From Bifidobacterium tsurumiense (lineage in GTDB: Bacteria; Actinomycetota; Actinomycetes; Actinomycetales; Bifidobacteriaceae), in assembly GCF_000741765.1 (NCBI RefSeq), contig NZ_JGZU01000017.1, positions 1 through 64,000 of the forward strand: 64,000 nucleotides of DNA, read 5' to 3'. The position numbers and the translations under genes were made by a program. Under the pieces are notes generated by a model. That model was not told where the DNA came from and did no database searches. It worked only from the letters and a program-made list of their open reading frames with translations. Below are positions 368-18,195 of the stretch, piece after piece (within the stretch, counting starts at the first letter, position 1; each line of letters opens with the position of its first letter).

Positions 368-1396
368 CTATCTGGCTTTGGCTTCAGCTACAGAACCTCT
401 GCGCAAATAGGTGACAGGGACTAAGTCACCCCTGCCTTCTTCAGAGGGTATGCAGCGTCCTTCTATCCACTCATGAAGCACATCCACGGCATGAGAACAG
501 GTTTGAGACGGACGAACAGGAATCTCATCCAAGCCCTGACCTTGCACTACCGCATCACCAAATGCACTGAGCACGATTACCGAAACATCTTGCGGAACAG
601 CCAGTGCCCGCCTATGCAAGGCATACATAATGGGCTGCCATGATTCCTGACCCTGTTGCACGACGACCGCGGTAATTCCCGGATTACGTTGGAAAGCCTG
701 ATCGATAACCCGTGCGGCATCTTCCTGACTACCGCCCCGCATCGATGAAAATATCACAGACATATTCAATTGCTGAGCAGATGTCATAATGGCATCCCTT
801 GTGCGAATCAGAAAATTAAGTTCATCCAAATATGACGTTACTTCTGCGCCGATAAACAAAATATTGCGATGTCCAAGACCTTGCAACCGTTTCAAGGCCT
901 CGTTTCCAGCCTTTTCGAAATCAAGATCAACCGCAACTATTCCGGCGCGATGACGCGGAAACCCGATGGCCACCACGGGAATACGAGAAGTCCGAGCGAC
1001 AGCAACGCGCGGATCGTCGAGAGAGACATCCAAAAGGACCACACCATCCACGCCGCCAGAATCGGCAATTCTTGTAAGTTCCGCGCCGTCCTTCTCCTGA
1101 ACCGACAACAGCACGGTGTATCCGTAATGCCGCGCACGCTTGGTAATGCCGAAGATGAACGGGGACCAGCACCGATAAGCCGTATCGTCATCCATAGGTG
1201 AGCTCACCGCAATGATTCCGGTGTGCTCACCTTGCCATGCTTGTAGCATGCCTTTGGGACGATACCCCAATTCACGCATCGCCCGTATGACTTTGGCCTT
1301 TGTCTCGGCACTGATAGGACGCCTGCCGCTCAAGGCATATGAAACCGTGCTGATTGACACACCCACTCGAGCGGCGACATCCTTAACTCCGACCAT
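368..1396 (-). CDS. LacI-family transcriptional regulator of the xyloglucan locus
   Basis: A 342-residue LacI/GalR repressor. The N-terminus VKDVAARVGVSISTVSYALS is a typical LacI helix-turn-helix with hinge, followed by a periplasmic-binding-like ligand domain (about residues 60-340). The longer reading frame starting at 1711 overlaps the GH42 gene; ATG at 1396 is preferred because it begins directly before the helix-turn-helix and follows AAAGGTG. It starts 10 bases after the GH42 stop codon on the same strand, so it is the last gene of the glycosidase row. Its position suggests it senses a xyloglucan-derived sugar, which is inference. Candidate target palindromes lie at 10217-10241 and 18277-18300. 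Confidence 0.9.
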   Translation of the reverse strand: MVGVKDVAARVGVSISTVSYALSGRRPISAETKAKVIRAMRELGYRPKGMLQAWQGEHTGIIAVSSPMDDDTAYRCWSPFIFGITKRARHYGYTVLLSVQEKDGAELTRIADSGGVDGVVLLDVSLDDPRVAVARTSRIPVVAIGFPRHRAGIVAVDLDFEKAGNEALKRLQGLGHRNILFIGAEVTSYLDELNFLIRTRDAIMTSAQQLNMSVIFSSMRGGSQEDAARVIDQAFQRNPGITAVVVQQGQESWQPIMYALHRRALAVPQDVSVIVLSAFGDAVVQGQGLDEIPVRPSQTCSHAVDVLHEWIEGRCIPSEEGRGDLVPVTYLRRGSVAEAKAR

Positions 1397-1406
1397 ATTG
1401 GCACCT

Positions 1407-3551
1407 TTACTGCAGATGGAAGACTGCCACTCCATATGAGGAGAGTTCAACCGTTCCATCATCGCCAGCCTTGACCTTGCGAGCACTGTCCTCTCGCGCC
1501 GCAATGACCGCATCGCTTTGCTCGACCCCATAATCAGGTGCGGCAATTCCTTGTTCGACCAAGGATTCTTCTCCTGCAAGCCAAGGAACAACAATGCGCT
1601 TGGAAGCGGATTCAAGATTGGTGACGAATACGAATCGACTGCCATCTTCGGCATACCGCACCGCGACATCGGCACCCTCTGGAATATCGAGGCATTCAAG
1701 ATCGAGACCATCTATTGCTCGAATGGCCACGGCCTTCATACCACCTTCGTCCAGTGCAGTACCGACGAAATACGCCCTGCCTTTGCCGAAGTCATGCTCA
1801 CTTACCGCCGTGGTACCTGCATAGAATCCGTCACCGCCGTATCTTGCGAGCGGTTTGGCTCCTTCGAGATGCATGATGCTGGCAACGATAGTGCCCTGTC
1901 CTTCGATGGCAGGTGTCGAGTCGGTTTCTCCGGACGCAGATTCCCCAGATCTGACCTCGATGCTTGCCTCTGGCGCCATCGCGTCGATTTCTTCAACCCA
2001 AACTCCGGTCAGCGAGCGTAATTCTCCCGGATATCCTCCTGGCACGATCAGATCATGTTCGTCATGCAATCCGGACATGTATCCCGTGATGAATCGACCG
2101 CCTTTGCGGACATATTCTTCCAAACTCTGGGCGACGCCAGGCTTGACCATAATCAAAGTAGGCGCCGCTACGATGGCGTATTTCGCCAAGGTTTGGGCAT
2201 CTGCCGTACTGGGGATAACGTCTACGCTCAAGCCCAACGAATGAAATGCCTTATAGAAGCGATGCACTTCATCCGGATAACGCAGGCCTTTGGTAGGGCC
2301 TACGCATGCTTCCAAAGACCAGTAGCTTTCCCAGTCGAAGATAATGGCGACCCGCGAGCGCACAGCACTGCCCATGATTGAGGTGCCGATCTGCTGCAGT
2401 TCTTCGCCCAAACGGGTGGTTTCCTTGAAAACTCGGGTGTTCTCGGTCCCGTCGTGACCAATGATGGCGCCATGGAAGCGTTCGCAACCGCCAATAGATT
2501 GCCTCAGCTGGAAGAATTGCACCGTATCTGCACCGTGGGCGACGGCATGCCAGCTCAGGGCTCGCACCTCGCCAGGTTGCTTGACTTCACAGAAGGGGAA
2601 CCAATTCTGCTGGTTTGGTGTCTGCTCCATGAGCATGAAGGGCTTGCCGCCGCCAACTCCGCGCATCAGATCATGGCGCATTGCGGTGAAGCTGGCAGGA
2701 GTATCCATGCCGGGATAGTTATCCCAGCTGACAATATCCATCTCGCGACCCCATGCGAAATAGTCGAGATCCTTGAAAGTGCTCATGAGATTCGTGGTGA
2801 TTGGTGTCGTTTCATCATTTTGGCGAATGGCATCACGCTCAATAATGAAGCAATCCAGCATGGCTTCGTTCTGGAAACGACGATAATCAATGAGCAGACC
2901 GGAGATTACCGACTTATCGGTTCCAATGCCATCGCCTGTGCCGAGAGGAGGCATTACATCTTCCCAAGCGGTTATTGTGTGGCTCCAGAAATTCATGCAC
3001 CACGCCTGATTCAGGGCTTCAATAGTGCCGTATTTCTTCTTGAGCCACAATCTGAATTCCTGAGCACAATTCTCGCAGTAGCAGATTCCTCCACCATTGC
3101 CATATTCATTATTGACATGCCATGCCTGCAGACCGGGGGTGCCGGCATAACGCTGGGCGATGCGGGTCGTGAGTTCTTTTGCCTGGCTGCGGAACACATC
3201 CGAGGTCGGACAGAAATTATGCCTGCCACCGAAAGTATTGCGCACACCGTCAATATTGGCACGGAGCACTTCGGGATGAAGGCGTGACATCCAAGCAGGC
3301 ACAGCAGCGGTTGCCGTGGCCAGCACGATATTGAAGTTATGCTTCACCAGAAGAGCGATAATGGCATCCAGTTTGGAAAAGTCATAGGTATGCTCATCGG
3401 GCTGAAGCAGTGTCCACGAGAACACATTGATAGTCGCTTCATTCATATGAGCGTGCTCGAGCATGGTCACATCTTGTTCCCATGTCTCCTCAGGCCACTG
3501 CTCCGGATTCCAGTCTCCGCCGAAAAGGAAGGAATCAAATTGTTGAGTCAT
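1407..3551 (-). CDS. GH42 beta-galactosidase
   Basis: A 714-residue cytoplasmic enzyme (no signal peptide) predicted to remove terminal beta-linked galactose. The family GH42 signature is clear: WHVNNEYG near residues 144-151 carries the acid/base glutamate (E149), and FMLMEQTPN near 305-312 carries the nucleophile (E309). CYCENC at 157-162 gives part of the zinc site typical of the family. Length is normal for GH42. AAGGAG lies 6 bases before the ATG. Within this locus the natural substrate is probably the beta-1,2-galactose on xyloglucan side chains; lacto- or galacto-oligosaccharides are the alternative. It is followed after 10 bases by the LacI gene. Confidence 0.93.
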   Translation of the reverse strand: MTQQFDSFLFGGDWNPEQWPEETWEQDVTMLEHAHMNEATINVFSWTLLQPDEHTYDFSKLDAIIALLVKHNFNIVLATATAAVPAWMSRLHPEVLRANIDGVRNTFGGRHNFCPTSDVFRSQAKELTTRIAQRYAGTPGLQAWHVNNEYGNGGGICYCENCAQEFRLWLKKKYGTIEALNQAWCMNFWSHTITAWEDVMPPLGTGDGIGTDKSVISGLLIDYRRFQNEAMLDCFIIERDAIRQNDETTPITTNLMSTFKDLDYFAWGREMDIVSWDNYPGMDTPASFTAMRHDLMRGVGGGKPFMLMEQTPNQQNWFPFCEVKQPGEVRALSWHAVAHGADTVQFFQLRQSIGGCERFHGAIIGHDGTENTRVFKETTRLGEELQQIGTSIMGSAVRSRVAIIFDWESYWSLEACVGPTKGLRYPDEVHRFYKAFHSLGLSVDVIPSTADAQTLAKYAIVAAPTLIMVKPGVAQSLEEYVRKGGRFITGYMSGLHDEHDLIVPGGYPGELRSLTGVWVEEIDAMAPEASIEVRSGESASGETDSTPAIEGQGTIVASIMHLEGAKPLARYGGDGFYAGTTAVSEHDFGKGRAYFVGTALDEGGMKAVAIRAIDGLDLECLDIPEGADVAVRYAEDGSRFVFVTNLESASKRIVVPWLAGEESLVEQGIAAPDYGVEQSDAVIAAREDSARKVKAGDDGTVELSSYGVAVFHLQ

Positions 3552-3663: not shown

Positions 3664-5265
3664 TTATCTACTTGCCATCAGCGGCTGATAGCGCACCTGA
3701 GAGAATTTCACTTGTCCCGTGCCATGTGCGAAAACGCCGAGTAGCGTGCCGGTGAACCCACCTGCATTGGTGAAACTCAACACTTTGCCAGGAACCGGAC
3801 CAAGTTCATGCACCAAACCATCAGCGGTTTGCACTGAACATACATAACCGGCATTTGTTCCCAAAAGTCGAAGAGTCACGGGTTGGGACCCATCCATGGC
3901 AATGCTGCCGACTGTGGATCTCAAACCAGCATTATTCACCTGCGCTGAAACCGTGTACTGCTCTGCAGAGGTCGAGTCCTTGCCACCTTGCTTATTCGGC
4001 GCATTTTCAGCACTCTCGGAATCTTTCGCAGCGCCGCGCTCGATACTCACAGTGATGACATGCTTATCGTTGCCATATGCGGCAATACCTGCCACTGCTG
4101 TTTCACATGAAACACCGGGCACAACAGCCGCCTCAAATAAGCAGTCCATATCAGTCTGACGTGTACCAATAAGCGGAGCTCCATCATTCGGCAGGTCAAA
4201 GTCATTGCCTGAGGCACTTACCTCAATATCGAATACAGATTCATCAGAATCAGCAACACCTTGGTTCGGTGATACGGAATACCGACCATAATCATCACGG
4301 CCTGGGGTAATCCATTCAACGTCATGTTCCAAGGCATCGCCATTGCCGTTGAGTGTGCAATCATATGACTGGTCTGCTAACTGTGGCCAGCCATCTTTCC
4401 AGGTGAACCAAACCGCATACGGTTCACGACCTATCCACCCTTGCGCAGGATACTCGTCATTATTACGGGTACCGTGGAATACCATCAAAGTTCGCTCATC
4501 TTCAAAGTGCGCGCAATCGCAATGACCAATGGCCTGCAAGGTAAGATGCGTGCTTCGATTGGTAATCAGAGGATTGCCCGAATACATCTCATAAGGACCA
4601 TCAGCCTTGTTCGATCGGGCGATATTCTCCATGTGCCCCGATTCAGTACCGCCTTCTGCCCACATGAGGTAATACATATCCCCGCGCTTGAGCATATGCG
4701 GACCCTCTGGATTTGATCCCGTGATACCTCCGCAAATTCGCTTGCGCTTATCGAGCACCTCTCCTGTGGTTACATCGAGACGAGACAGATATATTCCAGC
4801 CTCTTCGTGGTTGCCATCCTCATCTACACAGCCGCTTTCGTTGCCGCATATATATACAGTTCCGTCATCGTCGAAGAACAGGCTTGGATCGATTCCAGGC
4901 CAATCAGGAATCCAAATGGGATCGGACCATTCACCGCTCGGATCGCTGGCTGTCAACAGCATATTGCCAACATTCACATTGGTGACGATGAGATAATACA
5001 AGCCGTCGTGATAGCGGATCGTGGGAGCATAGATGCCCTGGCTGTTGCCCATGGATTCGTAAGGGAATTGGCTGGGACGCGAAAGCGCGTGCCCGACCTT
5101 GGTCCAGTGTTCGCCATCCTCGCTTTCGAATACCGGCAAACCTGGCATAAATTCAAACGAACTATTCACCATCACATATCCGCCATCGGGCTTCTCGCAT
5201 ATCGATGGATCGGGATGGAATCCAGATGCAATCCTTTTGGCTGGCTTGCAATTGAACAGCGTCAT
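3664..5265 (-). CDS. GH43 beta-xylosidase / alpha-L-arabinofuranosidase
   Basis: A 533-residue enzyme without signal peptide. The N-terminal five-bladed propeller of GH43 is marked by GFHPDPSI (base D19), GIDPSLFFDDDG (D127) and SNPEGPH (acid E187). The C-terminal half (from about residue 330) looks like the beta-sandwich domain of GH43 subfamilies related to 11 and 12. The start at 5265 is chosen because AAGGAG sits 7 bases upstream; an in-frame ATG 18 bases earlier places this ribosome site inside the gene. Next to xyloglucan enzymes it most likely removes arabinofuranosyl or xylosyl side groups, but the sequence alone does not separate the two activities. The preceding gene ends in a terminator (5307-5344), so it may have its own promoter. 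Confidence 0.88.
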   Translation of the reverse strand: MTLFNCKPAKRIASGFHPDPSICEKPDGGYVMVNSSFEFMPGLPVFESEDGEHWTKVGHALSRPSQFPYESMGNSQGIYAPTIRYHDGLYYLIVTNVNVGNMLLTASDPSGEWSDPIWIPDWPGIDPSLFFDDDGTVYICGNESGCVDEDGNHEEAGIYLSRLDVTTGEVLDKRKRICGGITGSNPEGPHMLKRGDMYYLMWAEGGTESGHMENIARSNKADGPYEMYSGNPLITNRSTHLTLQAIGHCDCAHFEDERTLMVFHGTRNNDEYPAQGWIGREPYAVWFTWKDGWPQLADQSYDCTLNGNGDALEHDVEWITPGRDDYGRYSVSPNQGVADSDESVFDIEVSASGNDFDLPNDGAPLIGTRQTDMDCLFEAAVVPGVSCETAVAGIAAYGNDKHVITVSIERGAAKDSESAENAPNKQGGKDSTSAEQYTVSAQVNNAGLRSTVGSIAMDGSQPVTLRLLGTNAGYVCSVQTADGLVHELGPVPGKVLSFTNAGGFTGTLLGVFAHGTGQVKFSQVRYQPLMASR

Positions 5266-5306
5266 TGCTTGCTCCTTAGTCACTCACCGTTGAATCCTCA
5301 AAATCA

Positions 5307-5358: not shown

Positions 5359-7827
5359 TCAGATTGTGGTCTGCACTCGGGCAACCCCATTGCTTATCTC
5401 GACTGTTAACTCGAGAATTTTTCCGCTTTGGAAGGTGATTTCCAATGTGATCTGACCATCCTGCACCGTCGCATCAGCGAAGAAGGATGGAGTAAGCGTC
5501 ACACTGCCCAAGCTATGGTCTGCAGTGTTGTCATGGACAACAACTGCGCTGCCATTCTGCAAATACTTCCACCAGCCTGAATTCGGCCCCACCTTGTTCC
5601 CGTTCTGGTACGTGGTAATGGATTTGAATTCATTGCCCGCGAAATCCAGTGCGATATCCAATCCGTTTTCTCGGGTACCAGCCGCCAGTCTGTCCGCATC
5701 AACTGTCGGCACTCCTGACTTCATAACATATTCATGCCATGGAGCCCCAGCAGAGAACCTCAGTGTCAGATCAGCCAGAAGACCGTTCCCCTTCCTGGCG
5801 TCAAAAACCGAGGCAAGATAATCAGCTTTGAGCACCACTGCGGACTGTTGCGAATCATAGGTATACTCTCCGCCTTCAGTCAAGCCGTCGATGCCTATGA
5901 AACTATTACCGTTCAAAGCCAGAGGGATGGAGATATCGGCATCTGGACGGTTTTCGATATACACAGTATCAAGACCGGTTGCGTAGGAAGATCTGCCTGT
6001 GGTACTTGCCTGAATCACATCGCCAGCCAACGGTTTTTTCCACGAATAGTCAGCATCATTCCTGTCTATTCCTGAACCGTTGTCCCAGAACATGGCTGCG
6101 ATGCCATGTTCTCGAGCCATGTGCCCCATGTACTCATAGTATTTTTGCTCTTCACCGGCTTGCAATGCATTATCTGAAGCTGAATCATATGCCAACAGAC
6201 CGTATTCTCCAATGACCGTGCCAATTCCACTTGTCGTAAACACGGCATTGACCCGTTGGAAGAAGTTTTCCATGGAATTGCGCGGGTTATATGGCTGCGA
6301 ACCTCCATAAAGATCCTCATCGAATCCGGTTATTCCGAGATTGGCGCTATACACCCACTCTGAATAATAATGAACCGTCGCCATAACATATGGATCGTTA
6401 TGCAAATCTTTCTGAATGAAGTCACGCGTGGCTTTCAACCTATCATCACCATAGGCGGTTTCAACAGTTGGAATGACTATCATGCGTTGTTCATTGCCAG
6501 GCGTGGCACGGATAATGTCATACGCTGCCTTATTCAGGGCATTGAGTTTTTCTTGTGCATCACCTTGGCTGAATTGCGGCTCGTTGAGAGTCTCAAAACT
6601 CACCAATTCTGGCTCATCAGCGAAGTATGAAGCCATTTGCTTCCACAGATCACTGAAGCGGATGTACTCAGCGGCATTAGTGTCGCCGTTCCAATTTTTG
6701 GCCCACAACCATGAATCGTGATGGATGTCGATCATGACATGCAATCCTTCATCGACTGCCCAATCAACGACTTCTCGGTAGCGTTCAAGCCACTGCTCAT
6801 CAAGAACGGTTTTTGTCGTACCGGTTGCCGCATCCACAACTTCGGTGTATCGACGGTATGCAGTCATTGGAATACGGATGCTGGTGAATCCCTTGGACTT
6901 AACGGAACGGATGAGTTCTTTGGTGACTTGTGGATTACCCCACGACACCTCACCTTGGTCAGGCTCACTGAGATCAGTCCCAACTGAGTCAAAGGAATTG
7001 CCCAAATTCCAACCAGAGCCCATGACTTTGGCATATGCCAACGATGAATATTCTTCTGGCTCTGCTTCGTCACCATAATTGATACGAACGTCTGAAATCA
7101 AGGCGTATTGCTGTCCAGATGATTCGATGCTGCTGCTTAATCCAGCGCTTTCACAAGACTTTTGAGCTGCCTGCGCTTCTGTGGCCATGCTCGGCATGCC
7201 GACGATCATGGCGACAACACCAATGCCGGCAACAGTACGACGAACGAATAGATGACCACCCTGTCTGCGGATAGAGACTCCGCACATAACAAGACCTGCC
7301 GCCAAGCATATTAGCCCTACTACAGGTGTGCCCGTCGTGCTGAGCTTGTCTGGTGTGCCGTTTTTCTTTTTAGAATGCGCAATATTCGATGCTTGGGAAT
7401 TATCTTCAATCGCTTTCCTCTCGCCTTCAGCGCCTTCGCCAATATGAATGACGAGGTCCTGGCCTTGAGCATCTTGAGCAAGTGCCGATTCACCAACCGG
7501 CAACTTCCCCACTGTCCATGAATAGACCGCCTGTCCGTCACTTGCAACGATTGATTCCGGGACAGAAGTAACGCCGTCTATCGAGACGATACTGCTATCA
7601 GAGACATTCGTCACTCGCAGTCGATAAGCTCCTTCGCTCGCGCGTTCTGACGAAATGCTTATGTCATTGGTTTCACAGGCAATCTCCTGCGCCGATGCTG
7701 GTTCTACTAGTACGAGCATGAGCCATGATATGGTCAACATGGCTGCCGTAAAAACACATCCAAGCTTCGCAGCTGTGGATTGTAGCCTACATATAAAGGA
7801 TATTTCCTGCGGGGACTGCAATCGCAC
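5359..7827 (-). CDS. Secreted GH5 endo-glucanase (likely endo-xyloglucanase) with N-terminal sorting-signal module
   Basis: 822 residues when started at GTG 7827, which follows GAGGAAAG at good spacing; upstream in-frame TTG at 7869 has no such site. Order: signal peptide (to about 46, ending PASA), a small extracellular domain of about 110 residues, an LSTTG sorting motif (about 163-167), a hydrophobic stretch, basic residues RRQGG, a second signal-like hydrophobic segment ending AQA, then the GH5 catalytic domain (about 265-600). GWNLGNSFD, ETLNEP (acid/base near 416) and VIGEYG (nucleophile near 541) mark GH5, and the whole resembles subfamily 4. The tail resembles an X2/Ig-like module followed by a CBM46-like module, as in Bacillus Cel5B-type enzymes. 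It is the only exported glycosidase of the locus and would cut the polymer outside the cell. Confidence 0.9.
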   Translation of the reverse strand: MRLQSPQEISFICRLQSTAAKLGCVFTAAMLTISWLMLVLVEPASAQEIACETNDISISSERASEGAYRLRVTNVSDSSIVSIDGVTSVPESIVASDGQAVYSWTVGKLPVGESALAQDAQGQDLVIHIGEGAEGERKAIEDNSQASNIAHSKKKNGTPDKLSTTGTPVVGLICLAAGLVMCGVSIRRQGGHLFVRRTVAGIGVVAMIVGMPSMATEAQAAQKSCESAGLSSSIESSGQQYALISDVRINYGDEAEPEEYSSLAYAKVMGSGWNLGNSFDSVGTDLSEPDQGEVSWGNPQVTKELIRSVKSKGFTSIRIPMTAYRRYTEVVDAATGTTKTVLDEQWLERYREVVDWAVDEGLHVMIDIHHDSWLWAKNWNGDTNAAEYIRFSDLWKQMASYFADEPELVSFETLNEPQFSQGDAQEKLNALNKAAYDIIRATPGNEQRMIVIPTVETAYGDDRLKATRDFIQKDLHNDPYVMATVHYYSEWVYSANLGITGFDEDLYGGSQPYNPRNSMENFFQRVNAVFTTSGIGTVIGEYGLLAYDSASDNALQAGEEQKYYEYMGHMAREHGIAAMFWDNGSGIDRNDADYSWKKPLAGDVIQASTTGRSSYATGLDTVYIENRPDADISIPLALNGNSFIGIDGLTEGGEYTYDSQQSAVVLKADYLASVFDARKGNGLLADLTLRFSAGAPWHEYVMKSGVPTVDADRLAAGTRENGLDIALDFAGNEFKSITTYQNGNKVGPNSGWWKYLQNGSAVVVHDNTADHSLGSVTLTPSFFADATVQDGQITLEITFQSGKILELTVEISNGVARVQTTI

Positions 7828-8083
7828 GGTTGCTACCTTTCCTCGATCTTTGAATATCTGGCGGCGCAAACGTACAAAAATGAAATGATATGCGCCATTG
7901 CATGCGGATAATCAATCCGCTCTTCTCTACTCATATTTCCTAACGATGCACTACAGCACCTCTGGAGTCCCGAACTCATCGGATTTGTCGACATCACGCA
8001 AGCACCGGTTTATGAGGTTACGCTGCTTCGCATTCGTTCTAGAAAATGCTAACCTTCATAACTTCGCTTGCGCGATATCGACA

Positions 8084-8135: not shown

Positions 8136-10175
8136 TTATTCAGCCAAAGGATCGCTGCCGGGACGAACCAGAACAGGCAATGTGTGGTAGTCGAATTGTT
8201 CGGTGTACCACTTGCCTGGCTCATACATCTCGCCGGTCAGCAAATTCTTCCAAGACTTTCCTGCTTGATCGCCGCCTGCATCCGGCACGTAGAAGCGTGC
8301 GGTGCCGTCTTCGCTGAAGACTGGAGCAACCAGCAAATCATCACCAAGCATGTACTGCGTGTCCAGATCCTCGCATGCAGGATCCTTCGGGAATTCCAGA
8401 ACCATGGCACGCATCATCGGCACGCCAGTGGCATGGGTTTCCTCAGACATACGCTTGAGATATGGCACAAGCTTGAGCTTGAGCTCAGTGAATTCGCGAG
8501 CCACTTCTACAGCCTCTTCGCCATACAGCCACGGCACCTTGTATTCATTGGAACCGTGATAACGGGAATGAGAGCTCAGCAGGCCGAACTGGGTCCAGCG
8601 CTTATAGAGATCAGGTGAAGGCTTGTCTTCAAAGCCGGCAATATCGTGGCTCCAATAACCGAATCCGCTCATGCCGAAGCTCAGACCCGCACGCAAGGAT
8701 TCTGCCATAGAAGGATAATTCGAAGAGCAATCACCACCCCAGTGCACCGGGAATTGCTGGCCGCCGACCGTCGCCGAACGCGCAAACAGAATCGCCTGAT
8801 CCTCGCCCTTGACTTCAGCGATGACGTCATACACCGCCTTGTTGTACAAGTAGGTGTAGTAGTTATGCATCAGCTGTGGATCGGAACCGTCGTAATACAC
8901 CACATCATCAACCGGGATGCGCTCGCCGAAATCGGTCTTGAAGCAATCCACGCCCTGGGCCATCAAGGCCTTGAGCTTGTCCTGATACCAGCGAACAGCC
9001 TCGGGATTGGTGAAGTCGACAATCGCCATACCGGCCTGCCATTTGTCCCACTGCCACACCTGGCCGTTGGTGCGCTTGATGAAGTACCCCTTGGCTGCGC
9101 CTTCTTTGAAAAGCGGTGATTTCTGTCCGATATAGGAGTTGATCCATACGCATACCTTCAAGCCGCGCTCATGGAGCTTGGCAAGCATGCCTTCCGGATC
9201 GGGGAATTTGTCCTCATCCCATTCGAAGTTGCACCACTCGAGTTCCTTCATCCAACGGCAGTCGAAGTGGAAGACCGACAGCGGGATATTACGCTCAGCC
9301 ATGCCGTCAACGAACTGCATGACGGTGTTCTCGTCATAATCCGTGGTGAACGAAGTGGACAGCCACAGGCCGTAGCTCCAATCCGGAACCAGCGGTGGCT
9401 TGCCCGTCAAATCGGTGTATGTATTGAGGATTGCCTTCAGATCCTCGCCGCCGATAACGGAGTAGCTCATCTCTTGCTCGGGTACGGAGAACTGCACACG
9501 GGAAACCTTCTCCGAACCGATTTCAAAGCTGACCTTGCCGGGAGTGTTCACGAAGAGACCATAGTTGCGGTTGGACAAGTAGAACGGGATGTTCTTGTAT
9601 GCCTGTTCCGTGCCGGTGCCGCCATCCTCATTCCAAATATCAACGGTTTGGCCATTCTTGATGAAGTTGGTGAAACGCTCGCCCAGGCCGTAGATCTTCT
9701 CGCCGACACCCAGATTCATCTGCTCAGAAACATGGATCTGACCTTCCGGATCGGTGACCAAGGCCTTGGCGCGCCAACCGGAGCGAGCGATTTCCTTGCC
9801 GTCATAGAGATACTGGAAGTCGATGCTCTCGCCCTTGGCAATACGCAGGCTCAATCGTCCTGAGGTGAATACCCAAGCATCCTCACCGTCTTCTATGGAC
9901 ACCTCAGGATTGGAGATGTTCAAATTGAATTCGGGATCATGGCTGCGATCCTCTTCGAAATTCACGAGCCTTGTCGTAATGATATCCGGACGAGGACTGG
10001 TGACCTCGATGGTCATGATACCGCCATCAAGCGTCTGTCCGGCGTTATGAATTGGGACGCCGAAGGGACAAAACAGAGTGAGCTTGCCTTCTTCGATATT
10101 TGCCGTGTACACGTTTGCCGCATACTTCACGTCATAGCCGTCTTTAACAAGCCATCCGCCGTTGAGGAACTTCAT
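8136..10175 (-). CDS. yicI: GH31 alpha-xylosidase (YicI-like)
   Basis: 679 residues, no signal peptide, cytoplasmic. FKTDFGE carries the nucleophile D415 and HWGGDCSS the acid/base D482; both spacing and context match the E. coli alpha-xylosidase YicI closely. Order: N-terminal beta-sandwich (1-245), TIM barrel (about 260-590), C-terminal beta domains. It should remove the alpha-1,6-xylose from the non-reducing end of imported xyloglucan oligosaccharides, alternating with the GH3 beta-glucosidase encoded just upstream. AAAGGAG lies 9 bases before the ATG. The 67-base gap to the GH3 gene contains an AT-rich palindrome. An alpha-glucosidase role is less likely given the YicI-like motifs. Confidence 0.92.
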   Translation of the reverse strand: MKFLNGGWLVKDGYDVKYAANVYTANIEEGKLTLFCPFGVPIHNAGQTLDGGIMTIEVTSPRPDIITTRLVNFEEDRSHDPEFNLNISNPEVSIEDGEDAWVFTSGRLSLRIAKGESIDFQYLYDGKEIARSGWRAKALVTDPEGQIHVSEQMNLGVGEKIYGLGERFTNFIKNGQTVDIWNEDGGTGTEQAYKNIPFYLSNRNYGLFVNTPGKVSFEIGSEKVSRVQFSVPEQEMSYSVIGGEDLKAILNTYTDLTGKPPLVPDWSYGLWLSTSFTTDYDENTVMQFVDGMAERNIPLSVFHFDCRWMKELEWCNFEWDEDKFPDPEGMLAKLHERGLKVCVWINSYIGQKSPLFKEGAAKGYFIKRTNGQVWQWDKWQAGMAIVDFTNPEAVRWYQDKLKALMAQGVDCFKTDFGERIPVDDVVYYDGSDPQLMHNYYTYLYNKAVYDVIAEVKGEDQAILFARSATVGGQQFPVHWGGDCSSNYPSMAESLRAGLSFGMSGFGYWSHDIAGFEDKPSPDLYKRWTQFGLLSSHSRYHGSNEYKVPWLYGEEAVEVAREFTELKLKLVPYLKRMSEETHATGVPMMRAMVLEFPKDPACEDLDTQYMLGDDLLVAPVFSEDGTARFYVPDAGGDQAGKSWKNLLTGEMYEPGKWYTEQFDYHTLPVLVRPGSDPLAE

Positions 10176-10216: not shown

Positions 10217-10241
10217 GTTATTGATAAGTCTATAAATAAAC
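10217..10241. promoter_or_regulatory. Candidate operator upstream of GH31
   Basis: GTTATTGATA and TATAAATAAAC form an imperfect AT-rich inverted repeat with a 4-base spacer, between the GH3 stop codon and the GH31 ribosome site. It resembles the palindrome at 18277-18300 at the head of the operon (shared half TTATTTATA). It may be a binding site for the LacI regulator at 368-1396; this is inference. Confidence 0.4.
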
Positions 10242-10242
10242 A

Positions 10243-12372
10243 TTATTCGACACGTCCATTCAGGCGAATATCTTGTACAGATTCGCCCACAAACACCTGT
10301 GCTTGTGGCGCGAGCGCAAAAGCGTCGCGTTCATTGGACCAATACCGCAAGGCCTTATGTGAAGCCATATCGATGGTCACCTGCCTGATTTCGCCGGGCT
10401 GCAACAATACCTTGTCAAACCCTTTGAGCTCTTTGACTGGACGGTCTTCACCGGTTCCCTCAAGTCCCAGATACACTTGAGGAACGGCATATCCCGCCCG
10501 ATCCCCTGTGTTCTTAATGGTGAATGCAACCCGCACCTTGTCATCAATGCGCTGCACCGAGAGCGCGGAGTAATCATAGCTGGTATAGCTAAGGCCGTGC
10601 CCGAAGCAGAAGCGGACTGGAATGTTGCGGGTTTCGTAATAACGGTAGCCCACATAAATATCTTCCGTATAATCCACATGCCCTGCCAAGCCGAAGGTGC
10701 CGACTGCGTGCGCAGGAGAGTCTTCCAGCGCAATCGGGAAACTCTCCGGCAAGTGGCCGCTTGGATTCTCCCTACCCACCAGCACTTCTGCGAGTGCGGT
10801 GCCACCCTCGCTACCGGCATACCAGCTCCAGACCAAGGCATGCACGCGATCAGCCCATCGCATGGTCACCGGCGAACCCGCGACCATGGTGACCACCATA
10901 TCGGGCGCGACATCAAGCAACGCTTCGATCAAAGCATCCTGACCATACGGCAAGTCCATGGTCTCGCGATCGCGACCCTCAAGATCATGGTCATGATCGA
11001 GTCCACCTACGAATATCACGGGAAGACCCGCTTGAGCATATTCCTTGGCACGAGTCACGGCTTCTTCGCGCAACTGCTTGGCCTGCGCCTCATCGGAGTT
11101 TGCATCGCCTGTGGAATTCTCCAGGCTCTCCTCCTGCCATGACGAATCCTGGGTGACCTGCTTGGCAAGATAGCCCGGAAGGTATTCTATGTCGACATTG
11201 CCGCCGATCAGGCCGTTCAATCCCAAAATGGGCGTAATCTCATGCAAGGCCTTGATGACGGCGCTGCCGCCGCCGTTGGAATGCGTTCGATCCGCGTTCG
11301 CGCCGATAACCAGCATTCGATCGAAACCGCGCACATCGAGAGGCAGCAGGCTCTTATCGTTCTTCAAGAGCACCACGGCTTGCCTTGCGATATCCAATGC
11401 TGTTTGCGCATGCTCGATGCTCGCGAAGCTGCCAGAGTGACGCGCGTTAGAATTCTTGCCGAGCATATGCAACGCATCCATAACGCTTAAAATGCGCACG
11501 ACTTTGGCGTCCACATCAGCTTCACTGACCTCACCCGCTTCGATGGCACGTTTGAGTGGATTGGCGAAATAGTATTCATCAAAATTCGGCGTCACCGCCA
11601 TCTCCACATCCAAGCCGACCTCAGCGCTTGCCTGTGTGCGCTTGACGGCGCTCCAATCGGAGATAACCGCACCTTTGAATCCCCACTCGTCACGAAGGAT
11701 ATCATCCAATAATTCGCTGGATTCACAGCACTGTTTGCCATTCACCAAGTTGTAGGCGCCCATAACCGTCAGCGTGCCGGCATCACGGACGGCAGACTCG
11801 AAGGCCGGCAGATAGATTTCACGCAAGGCCCGTTCACTTATGCTCTCATCAACTTCCAAGCGGTCGGTTTCCTGGCTGTTCGCAGCATAATGCTTTGCAC
11901 ATGCCGCAACGTCAGACTCCTGAACGCCCTTGATGTATTGCACACCTTGTTCCGCGGTCAGCACAGGATCTTCGCTCATATATTCGAAATTACGGCCGCA
12001 TAGAGGGCTGCGCTTGATATTGATAGAAGGTCCCAAAATCACGTCTTTGCCACGGCCGCGCGTCTCTTCGCCCAACACTTTTCCGGTCGCATATGCGAGA
12101 CCGCGATTCCAAGTCGATGCCACAGCGCTGCCGGAAGGCAGGTAGGTCACCAAATCACGGGTATTGTAAAGCGGTGCCCATGAGTCGTTATGCACTTCCG
12201 CACGGACTCCTCTTGGGCCGTCAGACATTTTCCAAGAAGGAATTCCCAGGCGCGGGACTCCTTCGGTGCGGAACAGGCCGGCACCGTGGATCATGCCGAT
12301 TTTCTCGTCCAGTGTGAGCTGCGACAACAGGTTGCGCGCTGTCTCGATATTGTCCTGAGTAATAGTGGTCAT
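10243..12372 (-). CDS. GH3 beta-glucosidase
   Basis: 709 residues, no signal peptide. The N-terminal GH3 barrel contains KH at 160-161 and GAVISDWSAVK with the nucleophile D239. It is followed by the alpha/beta sandwich domain (about 330-560) and a fibronectin-III-like C-terminal domain ending near residue 700. The start at 12372 follows CGAGGTG at 6 bases; an in-frame ATG nine bases upstream overlaps that site. It likely removes the backbone glucose exposed after alpha-xylosidase action on xyloglucan oligosaccharides, and could also hydrolyse cellobiose or gentiobiose. It lies between the GH29 and GH31 genes on the same strand, 58 bases after the fucosidase stop. Confidence 0.92.
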   Translation of the reverse strand: MTTITQDNIETARNLLSQLTLDEKIGMIHGAGLFRTEGVPRLGIPSWKMSDGPRGVRAEVHNDSWAPLYNTRDLVTYLPSGSAVASTWNRGLAYATGKVLGEETRGRGKDVILGPSINIKRSPLCGRNFEYMSEDPVLTAEQGVQYIKGVQESDVAACAKHYAANSQETDRLEVDESISERALREIYLPAFESAVRDAGTLTVMGAYNLVNGKQCCESSELLDDILRDEWGFKGAVISDWSAVKRTQASAEVGLDVEMAVTPNFDEYYFANPLKRAIEAGEVSEADVDAKVVRILSVMDALHMLGKNSNARHSGSFASIEHAQTALDIARQAVVLLKNDKSLLPLDVRGFDRMLVIGANADRTHSNGGGSAVIKALHEITPILGLNGLIGGNVDIEYLPGYLAKQVTQDSSWQEESLENSTGDANSDEAQAKQLREEAVTRAKEYAQAGLPVIFVGGLDHDHDLEGRDRETMDLPYGQDALIEALLDVAPDMVVTMVAGSPVTMRWADRVHALVWSWYAGSEGGTALAEVLVGRENPSGHLPESFPIALEDSPAHAVGTFGLAGHVDYTEDIYVGYRYYETRNIPVRFCFGHGLSYTSYDYSALSVQRIDDKVRVAFTIKNTGDRAGYAVPQVYLGLEGTGEDRPVKELKGFDKVLLQPGEIRQVTIDMASHKALRYWSNERDAFALAPQAQVFVGESVQDIRLNGRVE

Positions 12373-12412
12373 GGTGTACACCTCGTAGTGTTATTGCTGT
12401 GGTATTGATTTT

Positions 12413-12430: not shown

Positions 12431-13918
12431 CTATTCGACGGTGATTTTGAACACCACCGGAAGGCTTGCGTTGGCATTGGTGAAGTCCCGTTGCACAGAC
12501 TCCTGCCTCACGGAGATATTCAACCCTTCTGCATTGCGGTCGAATGAAACCTTTCCTGCACCCAATTGCTCAACGTTTCGAATAACCCCATGGAAGGGTG
12601 GCTGTTCGCTATTGTGATATGACTTCATGCTGGTTATCGTCACTTGTTGACAATCTCCAGGATTCAAACAGCATGCGTAAATCGCACCATTTTTGGATGT
12701 AAATCTGAAATCCTTGGAAGTCCAGACGATCGCCTGTTGATCACTAAATGAGCCGGAAGGCGTCGAAGTAGGCCCTTCTTGCGCCAGCCGCCAAGGCCGC
12801 GAACCATATATGGCTTCACCATTGACCTGCATCCATCGGCCTATGCCTTCGAGCAGCTTGCGATCGTGTTCGGCAATGGAACCGTCCGCTCGCGGGCCAA
12901 CATTCAATAACAGATTGCCATTCTTGCTGACCGTGTCCACCAGCGTAACCAACAGTTCGGCAAGTGTTTTGTATTCCAGCGAATTCGTGTAGCACCACGA
13001 ATTGCGCGCAATGGCCGTATCGGTTTGCCACACATATGGCTTGGCGTCAGCAAAACCGCCGCGCTCCACATCCACAAGACCGCTCCCCCATGCCATGCCA
13101 TCCTCTTTGTAGCAAATGGCGACGGGCAGCCCCAATTCTTTGCCGAGGTTATAGTAGAAAGCCGCCAGTTTCTGCATATATGGATTGAATGCGCTGTGCT
13201 GCACCCACCAATCGAAATACAGCAATTCAGGGCAATAGTTATCGATGATTTCGCATACTCGCAACAGCCAATCCTCAAGGAATTCCTCGGAGGGATATGG
13301 CGTACTGAACAGATCCTGGTTATCAGGTTCAGGCTGGGCTGGCCAATAGAAATCGCCACGTTGCATTGGTTCACGCACATCGGAGTCAAATTCTCGGCCA
13401 TGGCCCATAAACCACCAATGCTCAGCCCGGTGGTTGGATGTGGCGAAATGCATATCACGATTCAATGTGGCCTCGCGCAGTTCGCCCAGAATATCGCGGT
13501 GAGGTCCCATATCCACAGCATTCCAACGAGAAAGCTCGCTGCGATACATTTGGAAACCGTCATGATGCTCGCTGACGGGGAAATAATATTTCGCTCCGGC
13601 TGCCTTAAAGAGATCGAGCCATTCATTGGCGTCAAATGCCTCGGCCGTGAACATCGGAATGAAATCCTTGTATCCGAATTCCTTGTGAGGCCCGTATGTA
13701 TTGATATGGTGTTCGAACTCCGGATACCCTTTGATATACATATTGCGCGAATACCACTCGTTGCGGAATTCGGGGACCGTGTATAAACCCCAATGGGTAA
13801 AAATGCCGAATTTAGCGTCCGCGAACCATGCGGGTGCTTGCATATGACTGAGCGACTCCCAATTGGCGTCAAACGGCCCCTGGGCAATCACTCTGTCTAT
13901 GGTCTCCAGGTCCATCAT
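12431..13918 (-). CDS. GH29 alpha-L-fucosidase
   Basis: 495 residues from ATG 13918 (a second ATG follows directly), with AAGGAGG 6-9 bases upstream. The longer reading frame to 14053 adds 45 residues of no family similarity. The GH29 barrel is recognised by WFADAKFGIFTHWG (31-44), SEHHDGF (116-122) and LLYFDWW with the likely nucleophile D236. A C-terminal beta-sandwich follows. There is no signal peptide. In this locus it probably removes the terminal fucose of fucogalactoxyloglucan side chains after uptake, exposing galactose for the GH42 enzyme. Activity on human milk or mucin glycans cannot be excluded from sequence. Confidence 0.92.
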   Translation of the reverse strand: MMDLETIDRVIAQGPFDANWESLSHMQAPAWFADAKFGIFTHWGLYTVPEFRNEWYSRNMYIKGYPEFEHHINTYGPHKEFGYKDFIPMFTAEAFDANEWLDLFKAAGAKYYFPVSEHHDGFQMYRSELSRWNAVDMGPHRDILGELREATLNRDMHFATSNHRAEHWWFMGHGREFDSDVREPMQRGDFYWPAQPEPDNQDLFSTPYPSEEFLEDWLLRVCEIIDNYCPELLYFDWWVQHSAFNPYMQKLAAFYYNLGKELGLPVAICYKEDGMAWGSGLVDVERGGFADAKPYVWQTDTAIARNSWCYTNSLEYKTLAELLVTLVDTVSKNGNLLLNVGPRADGSIAEHDRKLLEGIGRWMQVNGEAIYGSRPWRLAQEGPTSTPSGSFSDQQAIVWTSKDFRFTSKNGAIYACCLNPGDCQQVTITSMKSYHNSEQPPFHGVIRNVEQLGAGKVSFDRNAEGLNISVRQESVQRDFTNANASLPVVFKITVE

Positions 13919-13986
13919 CGGACGCCTCCTTGCGCTGGAAATATCACCGGCAGCCGCGCCGGATATGAAAGGAAGAATGTATATAG

Positions 13987-14068
13987 GCACGCCCGCCGGA
14001 AGACGACGGGCGTGCACTGTCGAAATCGTGCGAATCTCATGCGGCATGCCCATGATGGGGCACGCCGC
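13987..14068 (-). terminator. Two tandem hairpins after the binding-protein gene
   Basis: GCGGCATGCCC/GGGGCACGCCGC (14041-14068) and GCACGCCCG/CGGGCGTGC (13987-14015) lie between the binding-protein stop at 14096 and the fucosidase start. Neither has a U-tract. They may partly stop transcription or protect the abundant upstream mRNA, so that the glycosidase genes are expressed at a lower level. Confidence 0.5.
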
Positions 14069-14095: not shown

Positions 14096-15880
14096 TTAGT
14101 TGGAGGATGAGCTGGACTCGTCCGAAGAAGAGGTCTTATTGGCATACTCTTCGGCGATGGCCTTACGAGCCGCCTCTTGATCCTTGGCGTTCTTCATATC
14201 GACCTCGAGTACCTGGTCAACGCCCAGACCCTTGACCGTGGAACGCATTTCACTCAGGATCGAGCTGAACTCGGAATCGCTGGAAGCGAAGGAAGCCTTC
14301 CAAGAAGCATTCACGATCTCGGTCTTGACCTGTCCACGCAGTGTGGAGATCTGGGAATCCTCATCAGGCTGGATGAAGGTGGCGCCCGGAGCGACCATGA
14401 TCATGTTATTGGCTTCAAGATACTCCATAGTGGTCTTGTAGCCGCCCATATGCTCGGACCAATCCTGGTTCAGTGCATTGCTATTGGCCTTTTCCAATTC
14501 GCTCGGCCACATGGATGCATTGAAGGAATAGCCGGTTTCAGGATCGGTATCGTTGACGAGCACCGTTGGGAAGTTCAGAGCGGATACACCGTCGGAGTAG
14601 GAACCACCACCGTATTCATCAGGAACATTGGCGGATCCACCATTGAGCACGGTCTCGCCGAAGTCAGTGAGCACAGGCTGGCCGTCCTTGATCTCCCAGT
14701 TCAGACCCTTCGGACCTGCTGCGCCACCGGTTTGGGCGCCGGAATCATACACGCCTTCGGAGGAATACAGCCAATCGATGAACTTGACCAAGCGCTGCTT
14801 GTTCTTGGCATTGGCACCGAGTGCGATCATGGTGCTGCTGCCATCAGGTGTTGCACCGTAGGAGAAGATCTTCTGATCCTTCATTGGGGCAATCATGAAG
14901 CCCTTGCCTGCAGCCTTGTTTTCAGTGGTGTTGTATGCCGCCTGACCCAACCAAGGCCAGAAGGAGAAGAGCACCTTGCCTTCCTTGTACTTGGAGTTCA
15001 TGGTGTCGTAATTCTGCGTGGTGGACTCGGGGTCGACAATACCGGCCTTATTGGCTGCGTAGAAGAATTTCAGGACGCGCTCGTAGATGCCATTCTCATC
15101 GGTGACCGACTCATAATCAGAGCCGTCAGCCTTGGCGAGTACGAAGCCCATTTCGTCGAATCCGTAGAATGTTGCGGGCTGCTTGGCATTGTTCATCATA
15201 TTGCCGTCCCAGTCCTTGAACAGGCTCATGGCATAGATGTCGTTGGAGCCGGTCTCTTCGCGAGCCTTATCCTGCATCTGCTTGAGTACAGGGATCAGGT
15301 CTTCAAGAGTATTGATTTCCGGATAGCCGATTTCCTTGTAGTAATCCCAACGGATATAGGGGCCGAATGTTGGTTCGAGTCCTTCGCCTGCTTCTGTTGG
15401 AGCTTCGGAGGATACGGAACCCGGGATTCCCCAGACGCCGGATTCCTGGCCGATGTTCTTGTTCAGGTTTTCGGTGGCGTTGGAATACTTCTTGATATTA
15501 TCCATGCCGTCCAGATACGGGGTCATGTCGGCAATGAGCTTGGCCTTGACCAGCTTGGCGCCGCGGCCGGAACCGTAACCGGTGATGATGATGTCGCCGA
15601 GGTTTCCTGCTGCAGAACGAGTATCGAAGAGGGTGCTGCCACCGCCGGCAACATTAGGGGCAACGACATTGAGCTTGATATTGAACTTGTCCTTGATGAG
15701 CTTGGCGAACCAACCCTTTTGTTCGCCCTGGTAGTTGGCCAGCTCGTCGAATACTTCGACGGTCATCAGTGAGCCGTCATCGGCATCCGAAGCGGTTTTG
15801 TCGCCACCGCAACCGGTGAGCGCCAGCATGGCGGATAGCGTCACTGCAACCGCGATACCTGCCTTCTTCTTGAGGGACAT
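14096..15880 (-). CDS. Sugar ABC transporter substrate-binding lipoprotein (LplA-type)
   Basis: 594 residues from ATG 15880, preceded by GGAAGG. The N-terminus is a lipoprotein signal with lipobox LALTGC (C24). The body is a long extracellular solute-binding protein of the LplA/YtcQ kind, which normally pairs with LplB/LplC permeases, exactly as here. The C-terminal tail is serine-rich. It lies downstream of both permease genes after a long 343-base leader with several hairpins. The size and the neighbouring enzymes suggest it binds large branched oligosaccharides from xyloglucan, which is inference. No ATPase gene is nearby. Confidence 0.9.
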   Translation of the reverse strand: MSLKKKAGIAVAVTLSAMLALTGCGGDKTASDADDGSLMTVEVFDELANYQGEQKGWFAKLIKDKFNIKLNVVAPNVAGGGSTLFDTRSAAGNLGDIIITGYGSGRGAKLVKAKLIADMTPYLDGMDNIKKYSNATENLNKNIGQESGVWGIPGSVSSEAPTEAGEGLEPTFGPYIRWDYYKEIGYPEINTLEDLIPVLKQMQDKAREETGSNDIYAMSLFKDWDGNMMNNAKQPATFYGFDEMGFVLAKADGSDYESVTDENGIYERVLKFFYAANKAGIVDPESTTQNYDTMNSKYKEGKVLFSFWPWLGQAAYNTTENKAAGKGFMIAPMKDQKIFSYGATPDGSSTMIALGANAKNKQRLVKFIDWLYSSEGVYDSGAQTGGAAGPKGLNWEIKDGQPVLTDFGETVLNGGSANVPDEYGGGSYSDGVSALNFPTVLVNDTDPETGYSFNASMWPSELEKANSNALNQDWSEHMGGYKTTMEYLEANNMIMVAPGATFIQPDEDSQISTLRGQVKTEIVNASWKASFASSDSEFSSILSEMRSTVKGLGVDQVLEVDMKNAKDQEAARKAIAEEYANKTSSSDESSSSSN

Positions 15881-16079
15881 GGTGTCCTTCCTTTCCTTAT
15901 GGTGTGATTTTTCGGGATACGTGTTTGTGTGTGTTGTCGGCTTGACTGAGGATCGTTTCCGACAAACTTGCAACAGCCCTTTAACGATTTGCCTCGGCCT
16001 TACGGCTTGCTTCTCGCCATCCGATTTGAGGCCGTTGCCTTTTCCTTGCCTTCAGTTCTGTCGTCAAGGGTTGGTGGGT

Positions 16080-16097
16080 GTTAAAGGTGTCTTTAAC
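16080..16097. other. Hairpin in the long leader of the binding-protein gene
   Basis: GTTAAAG/CTTTAAC with a GTGT loop lies inside the 343-base untranslated stretch 15881-16223. Another compact hairpin, CCGGC/GCCGG, lies near 16131-16144. I see no open reading frame and no recognised riboswitch here. Confidence 0.4.
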
Positions 16098-16183
16098 TCG
16101 GTAACCGTGCTTGGTCTTATGCAATTTTTGACCGGCGGAGCCGGACTGTGTTTCTGCCTCAGCTCCCTTAGTGGGCGCCTCGG

Positions 16184-16227
16184 CTAAGTCGGATGACAGC
16201 CCACTGGGCTGTCATCTATCGACTTAG
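16184..16227 (-). terminator. Strong hairpin between permease and binding-protein genes
   Basis: GATGACAGCCCA pairs with TGGGCTGTCATC (16192-16216), extended outside by CTAAGTCG/CGACTTAG, so the stem includes the permease stop codon at 16224. There is no U-tract. It could be an mRNA-processing or stabilising element rather than a full terminator. Confidence 0.6.
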
Positions 16228-17174
16228 CCCTTTACCGCTCCAAGCATCATGCCTTTGACGAAGAAGCGCTGGAAGAAGGGGTAGACGAAGAGGATCGGGA
16301 GCACGACGATAACGGATACCGTCATGCGGATCGAGGTCGGCGTTTGCTGGGTTGCCAGAGCCGCAACGTTCATTGCAGTTCCTGCGCTCGCCTTCACCGA
16401 TGCAGCCAATGCATTGGCCTGGTTGATGTAGGTGTACAGCAAATACTGCAGGGAATACAGCTTGGAATCCGTCATGTAGATCAGGGTGTCCTGGAAGGAG
16501 TTCCACTGACCGACCGCAGAGAAGATAGCGACCGTAGCCAAGATTGGCGTACACATCGGCAGGATGATCTTGCCGAATACCGTCATGGTTCCTGCGCCAT
16601 CCATTTCCGCAGCTTCTTGAAGGCTTGCAGGAATGGATTCCACATAGGTCTTCACCAAGATGATATTGAATGGCTGAACGATGGCGGGAAGCACATACAC
16701 CCAGAAGTTATTGGTCAGTCCAAGGTTCTTCATGGTGATGAACATAGGAATAAGACCTGCGTTGAAATACATGGTCACCACGATGAAGCGGTACCAGAAG
16801 GTACGACGCCACATCTTCTGCTGAGTGAACATGAATCCCAAGAATGCGCTTGCAATCACGGTCAAGGCAGTACCGATAACGGTACGCGCCAACGAAATGA
16901 AGGCGGCAGTGCTCAGACCATCAAGTGCGAATACCTGCTTGTAGTTCTCCAGATGGAATCCGTCTGGCCACCAATTCACCTGGCCTGCGGCCGAAGCAGC
17001 ATTGTCAGAGATGGAATTGATGATGAGGTAGTAGAAGGGATATACGCAGATAAATGCGAACACCACGAAGAAGAGGATGTTGAATACGTTGTATATCTTC
17101 TCGCCACGGGTACGGCGCATGGAAGGTGCCACGCTGACTGCAACTTTGCTTTTCACGATACGATTCCTTTCCAT
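16224..17174 (-). CDS. Sugar ABC transporter permease (LplC/YtcP-type)
   Basis: 316 residues with six predicted membrane segments, a CUT1-family inner-membrane subunit. The cytoplasmic EAA loop reads EAAEMDGAGTMTVFGKIILP (about 189-208), which docks the ATPase, and the C-terminus ends in the usual KGMMLGAVKG. The YtcP/LplC subgroup partners with YteP/LplB permeases and LplA-type lipoproteins. It starts 4 bases after the upstream permease stop, so the two are translationally coupled. Confidence 0.92.
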   Translation of the reverse strand: MERNRIVKSKVAVSVAPSMRRTRGEKIYNVFNILFFVVFAFICVYPFYYLIINSISDNAASAAGQVNWWPDGFHLENYKQVFALDGLSTAAFISLARTVIGTALTVIASAFLGFMFTQQKMWRRTFWYRFIVVTMYFNAGLIPMFITMKNLGLTNNFWVYVLPAIVQPFNIILVKTYVESIPASLQEAAEMDGAGTMTVFGKIILPMCTPILATVAIFSAVGQWNSFQDTLIYMTDSKLYSLQYLLYTYINQANALAASVKASAGTAMNVAALATQQTPTSIRMTVSVIVVLPILFVYPFFQRFFVKGMMLGAVKG

Positions 17175-17178
17175 CCAC

Positions 17179-18195
17179 TCAGACGATTGACGTGCCGCGA
17201 GTGCGCTTGGACAGCCAGTTCACCACGAAGAGCAAGCCGACACTGACCAAGGATTTCAGCATGGAGATTGCGGTTGCCAGCGACAAGGAGTTGTTGCCCA
17301 TACCGACGTTGTACACATACAGATCAAGCACCTGAATATGCTTCATATTGAAGGCGTTCTGGAACACGAAGTACTGATCCATACCATTGTTGAGGAAGTT
17401 GGATACGGAGAGCATCAGCAGCACAAAATAAGTCGGCAAAAGCTGTGGAATCGTAATGTGGATGATCTGCTGCCACCGGCTTGCGCCATCGACCTGCGCG
17501 GCTTCATACAATTCCTGATCAATGCCTGCAATTGCAGCCAAGTAGAGGATCGATCCCCAACCGAGGCCCTTCCAGATACCCCACATCAACATCTTGAGCC
17601 ATGTATGGGAATCGGAATCGAGGAACTTGATCGGCTCGGTGATCAGATGGAGATTCTGCAACAACTGGTTGAACATACCGGTGGTGGAGAACATGGCAAA
17701 TGCCACGGAGTAGACCAGCACCCAGCTGATGAAGTTCGGCAGAGTGGTCAGAGTCTGCACCAGGTTCTTGAACCAGCGTGCACGGATCTCGTTCAACGCG
17801 ATTGCGCAGAGCAGCGGGAAGAACGAGGTGAGGATATTCAAACCACTCATGGCGAAGGTATTCGCCAGCACCTGACCGATGGTCGCCAACTGAGCCGGGT
17901 TCTGCACCAGCATCTTGAACCACTGCAATCCAACGAATTCGCTCTCGGTCAGTGGGATTGGCGGCTGATAATCAAAGAATGCGTAAATCCATCCGAACAG
18001 CGGCAGATAGCTGAACAGCACGGAGAGAATCAGGAATGGAACAATGAGCAACCACAGGCGAAAGCCATGTGTTTTATCGCTAGTGACCCCACCGTTCTTC
18101 TTCTTACGTCGCGATTGACGCCCTGCGACTGCCGCCGCTTCTGACGTAACACCTGCGCTCGCTGTCGCGCCGGCACTACCCTCTAGTGACTGCAC
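17179..18195 (-). CDS. Sugar ABC transporter permease (LplB/YteP-type)
   Basis: 338 residues starting at GTG 18195, which is preceded by AAGGAGGAAAG. A basic, low-complexity N-terminus of about 45 residues precedes six membrane segments. The EAA loop is YEAAQVDGASRWQQIIHITI. LplB/YteP-type subunits form the other half of the translocation channel with the LplC-type protein. It is the first gene of the xyloglucan operon, with a good promoter at 18312-18340. The substrate assignment rests on its neighbours. Confidence 0.92.
   Translation of the reverse strand: MQSLEGSAGATASAGVTSEAAAVAGRQSRRKKKNGGVTSDKTHGFRLWLLIVPFLILSVLFSYLPLFGWIYAFFDYQPPIPLTESEFVGLQWFKMLVQNPAQLATIGQVLANTFAMSGLNILTSFFPLLCAIALNEIRARWFKNLVQTLTTLPNFISWVLVYSVAFAMFSTTGMFNQLLQNLHLITEPIKFLDSDSHTWLKMLMWGIWKGLGWGSILYLAAIAGIDQELYEAAQVDGASRWQQIIHITIPQLLPTYFVLLMLSVSNFLNNGMDQYFVFQNAFNMKHIQVLDLYVYNVGMGNNSLSLATAISMLKSLVSVGLLFVVNWLSKRTRGTSIV

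Follow-up and report, generated by a model that had tools for sequence, protein, structure and literature searches.

The window (the whole stretch of 64,000 nucleotides of Bifidobacterium tsurumiense DNA analysed here, from the first base of contig C17) carries ten genes on its minus strand. In transcription order they encode two permeases, a binding lipoprotein, GH29, GH3, GH31, GH5, GH43 and GH42 enzymes, and a LacI-family regulator (Table 1). All ten lie where an earlier note on this DNA had placed them, and each of its family assignments was upheld, with Pfam matches far above the curated cut-offs. The catalytic residues are also in place, namely D281 (conserved nucleophile) of GH29, D242 of GH3 and E149 and E309 of GH42 (assigned by motif), D415 and D482 of GH31, E430 and E555 of GH5, and D25, D132 and E193 of GH43. 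The solute-binding protein gave no Pfam match and was identified by homology. The open reading frame of the LacI gene extends to 1711 and overlaps the GH42 gene, with the helix-turn-helix beginning near 1396, and the likely start of GH29 is near 13918, inside its reading frame. About 25 other Bifidobacterium genomes share this gene order; hence, the cluster is not a chance grouping. The DUF624 gene is the neighbour of the importer genes in nearly all related loci.

Table 1. Features of the probable xyloglucan locus and of its surroundings. Coordinates are those of the window unless a contig is named.
Feature	Coordinates	Strand	Remarks
IS256-type (Mutator family) element, 5' end cut by contig end	1-244	-	
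LacI-family regulator	about 368-1396	-	PF00356, PF13377
GH42 β-galactosidase	1407-3551	-	PF02449, PF08532; 37% identity to R. cellulolyticum Gal42A
GH43 (+C2), probable α-L-arabinofuranosidase or β-xylosidase	3664-5283	-	PF04616, PF17851
GH5 subfamily-4-like endoglucanase with CBM_X2/Ig and CBM46	5359-7869	-	PF00150, PF03442, PF18448
GH31 α-xylosidase, YicI type	8136-10175	-	NF007940; 56% identity to Xyl31A
Second operator copy (predicted)	10218-10239	-	upstream of GH31
GH3 β-glucosidase	10243-12381	-	PF00933/PF01915; 46% identity to R. cellulolyticum Glu3A
GH29 α-L-fucosidase (or α-L-galactosidase)	12431-14053	-	PF01120; nearest solved structure BpGH29
Extracellular solute-binding lipoprotein	14096-15880	-	lipobox LTGC, MSLKKK start; 38% identity to SBP2458
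ABC importer permease B	16224-17174	-	PF00528; 56% identity to second TMD, Ccel_2451-2458
ABC importer permease A	17179-18195	-	PF00528; 64% identity to R. cellulolyticum TMD (Ccel_2451-2458)
Palindromic operator (predicted), CTTATTTATAAAGTAATAAATAAG	18277-18300	.	just 3' of importer promoter -10
DUF624 (YesL-like) membrane protein	18395-19069	+	PF04854; divergent from importer
GH94, esterase, TetR, Schlafen/AlbA and ROK genes with third operator copy	C4 153388-159737 (L081 3389-9738)		

Adjoining the cluster, the segment 19383-25081 of the window includes genes for a DUF2961 (GH172-type) protein, two permeases, a solute-binding protein and a LacI-like regulator. A tRNA-Gly called by ARAGORN antisense to the GH3 gene, within its bounds (11231-11305), was not supported by Rfam and was dismissed.

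The GH31 protein matches the NF007940 equivalog over its full length with 1152 bits (cut-off, 606), and E. coli YicI with 839 bits. The YicI active-site positions F277, C307, W345, K414 and D416 are kept (F277 and C307 are F276 and C306 in the window protein), and F308 is replaced by R. The prior assignment of this protein as an α-xylosidase is thus well founded. Like the GH3 and GH42 enzymes, it lacks a signal peptide and is cytoplasmic. A xylose isomerase is present in the genome.

The best solved match of the GH29 protein is BpGH29, an exo-α-L-galactosidase of porphyran metabolism. BpGH29 belongs to GH29 cluster 2, and members that release fucose from xyloglucan have been reported in clusters 2 and 3 (PMC11189522). 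The nearest characterised enzyme found is EntFuc of E. gallinarum, which failed to release fucose from either 2'FL or xyloglucan polymer (PMC10380807). The homologous locus of E. gallinarum (L131) has a GH29 reading frame of the length published for EntFuc, 487 aa, and the product of this frame is 59% identical to the window GH29; EntFuc is probably this protein. Removal of fucose from xyloglucan by the window enzyme is thus plausible. Fucosylated xyloglucan, named previously as a substrate, is therefore retained as a plausible one but not as a secure one, given the inactivity of EntFuc and the exo-α-L-galactosidase activity of the closest structure.

The GH5 protein is trimodular, with a catalytic domain followed by an Ig-like/CBM_X2 module and CBM46. 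Its best solved and structural matches are the trimodular GH5_4 enzymes 5e09, 5xrc and 4v2x, in agreement with the subfamily-4-like assignment made before; the AlphaFold model, which is of modest quality (pLDDT 65.6), served for the domain order only. The trimodular GH5_4 enzyme BlCel5B acts on β-glucan, xyloglucan, lichenan and CMC, and hydrolyses xyloglucan at 45% of its β-glucan rate (PMC4817029). Thus, a broad endoglucanase that includes xyloglucan among its substrates is the right expectation for the window GH5 by analogy. Since GH5_4-CBM46 enzymes are broad endoglucanases, xyloglucan may not be its main polymer.

Three hydrophobic segments precede the GH5 catalytic domain in the hydropathy profile, at 34-60, 176-202 and about 207-230. 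The N-terminal 270 aa comprise an ectodomain, a stretch resembling a sorting signal (LSTTG-TM-RR) and a further transmembrane segment. The B. choloepi version starts with a lipobox-like signal (LTGC). Given these hydrophobic segments and the lipobox-like start in B. choloepi, the GH5 enzyme is probably tethered to the membrane and attached to the cell surface. It had been described as secreted, but is probably not simply so. Three sortase-family matches were found in the genome. Sortase cleavage at the LSTTG-TM-RR stretch was considered and set aside, as the motif lacks proline and the GH5 domain follows it, and only membrane tethering is proposed. In the GH5 of one bee-gut species, LPKTG lies ahead of the domain.

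The substrate was further approached by comparison with R. cellulolyticum, in which SBP2458, the binding protein, binds XXXG very tightly and growth on xyloglucan depends on the importer (PMC4780118). On the R. cellulolyticum contig, genes for GH42, a response regulator, a sensor, GH3 and GH31 were found divergent from those for two permeases and a binding protein, which is the published order of Ccel_2451-2458. The GH42, GH3 and GH31 enzymes, both permeases and the binding protein are all homologous to those of the window, and the identities of the importer proteins to Ccel_2456-2458 cover most of each protein. Judged by this homology, the solute-binding lipoprotein is a probable binder of xyloglucan oligosaccharides, although it shares no more than 38% identity with SBP2458. 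In R. cellulolyticum, imported large oligosaccharides are digested inside the cell, and the cellobiose left by digestion is handled by GH94 (PMC8576529); the same route would apply here. The R. cellulolyticum cluster has no GH29 or GH43 gene, whereas the window cluster has both, and a GH5_4 enzyme of its own and a probable TetR regulator further set the Bifidobacterium system apart. No XygS/XygR two-component regulator was found in the window cluster, and the likeness is confined to the importer and the enzymes. No ATPase gene accompanies those of the importer, and one MalK-type ATPase is encoded elsewhere in the genome, on contig C18.

The XyGUL of Bacteroides ovatus likewise combines a GH5_4 endo-enzyme with GH31, GH3 and GH43, and BoGH43A and BoGH43B rank second and third among the solved matches of the window GH43. 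However, BoGH31A is a much weaker match to the window GH31 than YicI, and import in the XyGUL is by SusCD in the outer membrane with no ABC importer, which the window has. ABC import had been put forward as the feature that distinguishes the locus from those of Bacteroides and Cellvibrio. This no longer holds as a novelty, as import of xyloglucan oligosaccharides in this way is the known mode of R. cellulolyticum (PMC4780118) and islands of this kind, termed XG-1, were predicted in 2021 in the marmoset bifidobacteria MARM_A1, B. myosotis and B. hapali (PMC8406136). The XG-1 islands include predicted β-glucosidase, α-xylosidase and α-fucosidase genes, and those of B. hapali and B. myosotis are syntenic with the window. 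Unlike the window, they showed no GH5 gene in the stretch examined, and they include a contiguous ROK-TetR-esterase-GH94 module that the window lacks.

Orthologues of the binding protein with more than 50% identity were found in 26 of 112 Bifidobacterium genomes. Relatives recovered in the genus search include B. bohemicum, B. moukalabense, B. choloepi, B. myosotis and B. hapali, and among named species B. psychraerophilum has the most similar binding protein (86%). The order is nearly always permeases, binding protein, GH29, GH3, GH31, in some cases GH43, and GH42. In 57 of 79 loci, a homologue of the binding protein and a related GH31 gene are no more than 10 kb apart, and loci of this kind were also seen in Lachnospiraceae, Microbacterium, Enterococcus and Lapidilactobacillus. 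The binding protein is present in a second copy in B. bohemicum, bee-gut species and B. simiiventris (L022 5-3614, L180 9134-12884 and L057 17726-19501), and in some relatives a different GH31 (46-48% identical) with an importer of its own adjoins the locus.

The distribution of the large GH5 is much narrower. Within or beside the xyloglucan locus, it was found in just five of the Bifidobacterium genomes searched, and at a different position in bee-gut species, while most xyloglucan loci of the genus are without it. In B. tsurumiense it is the sole PF00150 match in the genome. Searches for this GH5 found none in viral contigs and only distant GH5s in plasmids.

Most relatives have ROK, TetR, esterase and GH94 genes as a continuation of the locus, and in several species there are further operators. 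In this genome, these genes form a module on contig C4, where the operator copy precedes GH94, followed by the esterase and TetR genes. The locus can therefore not be called complete, as it had been, and the C4 module probably supplies what the regulon lacks here. The window starts inside an IS256-type element, which leaves the left boundary of the locus open. Over its 244 bp, this partial element is identical to a stretch (L081 12829-13072) of an intact copy on C4 (PF00872), which is close to the GH94-TetR module and to a fragment of the binding-protein gene. The split may be a true rearrangement or an effect of assembly.

The importer genes are preceded by a promoter with -35 TTGACA (18340-18335) and -10 TATTAT (18317-18312), and by a 24-bp palindrome with the consensus CTTATTTATAAnnTTATAAATAAG, built from 56 sites. 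The palindrome occurs at only three sites in the 2.16 Mb genome, ahead of the importer, GH31 and GH94, and at none in a reversed-sequence control or in first-order random sequence. Orthologues of the TetR protein encoded on C4 are present in 24 of the 26 genomes with a xyloglucan locus and in 8 of the 86 others, and 6 of these 8 have the operator; the Fisher value for TetR (p about 1.7e-15) overstates the evidence, as related species are not independent samples and shared ancestry inflates the figures for both TetR and the operator. Counted by hand from the tabulated genomes, the operator is found in 29 of 32 with TetR and 7 of 80 without. The TetR gene is on the contig of the locus, within about 30 kb, in 23 of the 24 genomes. 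The exception is the genome of the window, in which it is on another contig beside its own copy of the palindrome. TetR, and not LacI, is probably the conserved regulator, as the operator co-occurs with it across the genus. The TetR genomes that have no xyloglucan locus indicate that the regulon may instead be centred on GH94.

In bifidobacteria, sugar regulators of the TetR family encoded beside cellodextrin phosphorylase genes are known as the BgrT group (PMC4746261). As there, the TetR gene described here is beside a set of genes for cellodextrin phosphorylase and β-glucoside use, and is linked to target genes that share a palindromic site (18-22 nt for BgrT). The main text of that paper, which distinguishes eight groups, describes no xyloglucan regulon for BgrT (PMC4746261). 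A ROK protein was also considered as partner of the operator, because the palindrome is AT-rich as are NagC/Mlc sites, and was rejected; the nearby ROK protein (304 aa) gave a match to a ROK domain only and none to a helix-turn-helix, and TetR fits better.

A part for LacI as the main regulator, suggested by the earlier note, is improbable. The LacI gene is present, is the last of the cluster and is on the same strand, and in B. simiiventris, B. oedipodis and one further genome (G052) a LacI homologue likewise closes the locus. However, LacI genes are found in the xyloglucan loci of only a few species, often beside a second binding protein, and are absent from most of the loci that retain the operator. 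LacI sites commonly have a central CG, which the palindrome lacks, and its presence goes with that of TetR.

Taken with the TetR link, the locus very probably supplies the importer and the hydrolases, one half of an ABC-type regulon for xyloglucan use in Bifidobacterium. The YicI-type GH31, the GH5_4-Ig-CBM46 protein and the importer homologous to that of R. cellulolyticum strongly support the earlier claim of a xyloglucan locus. Growth on the polymer, as proposed here, would begin at the cell surface with cleavage of xyloglucan, and probably other β-1,4-glucans, into large oligosaccharides by GH5_4-Ig-CBM46. The binding lipoprotein and the two permeases, driven by the shared MalK-type ATPase, would import these. 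Once in the cytoplasm, the side chains would lose their tips to GH29, GH42 and, if they bear arabinose, GH43, the YicI-type GH31 would take off xylose from the non-reducing end and GH3 would trim glucose from the backbone. Cellobiose would pass to the GH94 phosphorylase and acetyl groups probably to the esterase, both encoded on C4. The BgrT-like TetR protein, encoded with GH94, would probably repress the importer, GH31 and GH94 promoters via the palindrome.

A different substrate, such as a gum or host glycan bearing fucose or L-galactose, would fit the solved relative of GH29 and the generic nature of GH42 and GH43. It is very improbable nonetheless, as it leaves unexplained a YicI-type α-xylosidase, a GH5_4-CBM46 enzyme and an importer homologous to a proven xyloglucan importer in one cluster, and cluster 2 of GH29, to which BpGH29 belongs, is one of the two reported to include xyloglucan fucose-releasing enzymes (PMC11189522). 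The suggestion that the cells mainly scavenge xyloglucan oligosaccharides made by others, with GH5 serving chiefly on cellulose-like or mixed-linkage β-glucan and its place in the locus secondary, is rather unlikely but has more behind it. It accords with the rarity of the large GH5 in the xyloglucan loci of the genus and with the preference of its trimodular relatives for β-glucan. Against it are the presence of GH5 within or beside the locus in five genomes, and also in the bee-gut species at another position, and its standing as the only PF00150 match of this genome.

A joint proposal is slightly more likely than not: that a TetR xyloglucan regulon, acting through the 24-bp palindrome on importer, α-xylosidase and cellobiose phosphorylase genes, extends across the genus, that a membrane-tethered GH5_4 endo-xyloglucanase is added to it in a few species, and that it is split in this genome, perhaps by the IS256-type element. 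If so, the tethered GH5_4 turns a scavenger of oligosaccharides into a degrader of polymer in those few species, among them B. tsurumiense.

Xyloglucan is common as a fibre of the diet and of plant walls, and none of the papers searched reports an experiment in which bifidobacteria grew on the polymer. The interest of the locus lies in an endo-enzyme that is rare among relatives and in a clear link between operator and TetR. It offers a testable contrast between a possible primary degrader with a surface endo-enzyme and relatives without one that are maybe scavengers only, and the operator and regulator are defined sharply enough to be tested directly.

Two minor observations concern GH5 genes in other species. 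In B. bohemicum, a frameshift or an assembly error interrupts the frame close to where the catalytic domain begins (L021 8253-10558). A second, smaller GH5 gene is found in the xyloglucan locus of several species (L011 1297-2451, with a product of about 384 aa and no evident signal peptide; L021 about 10945-11928; L060 6989-7864).
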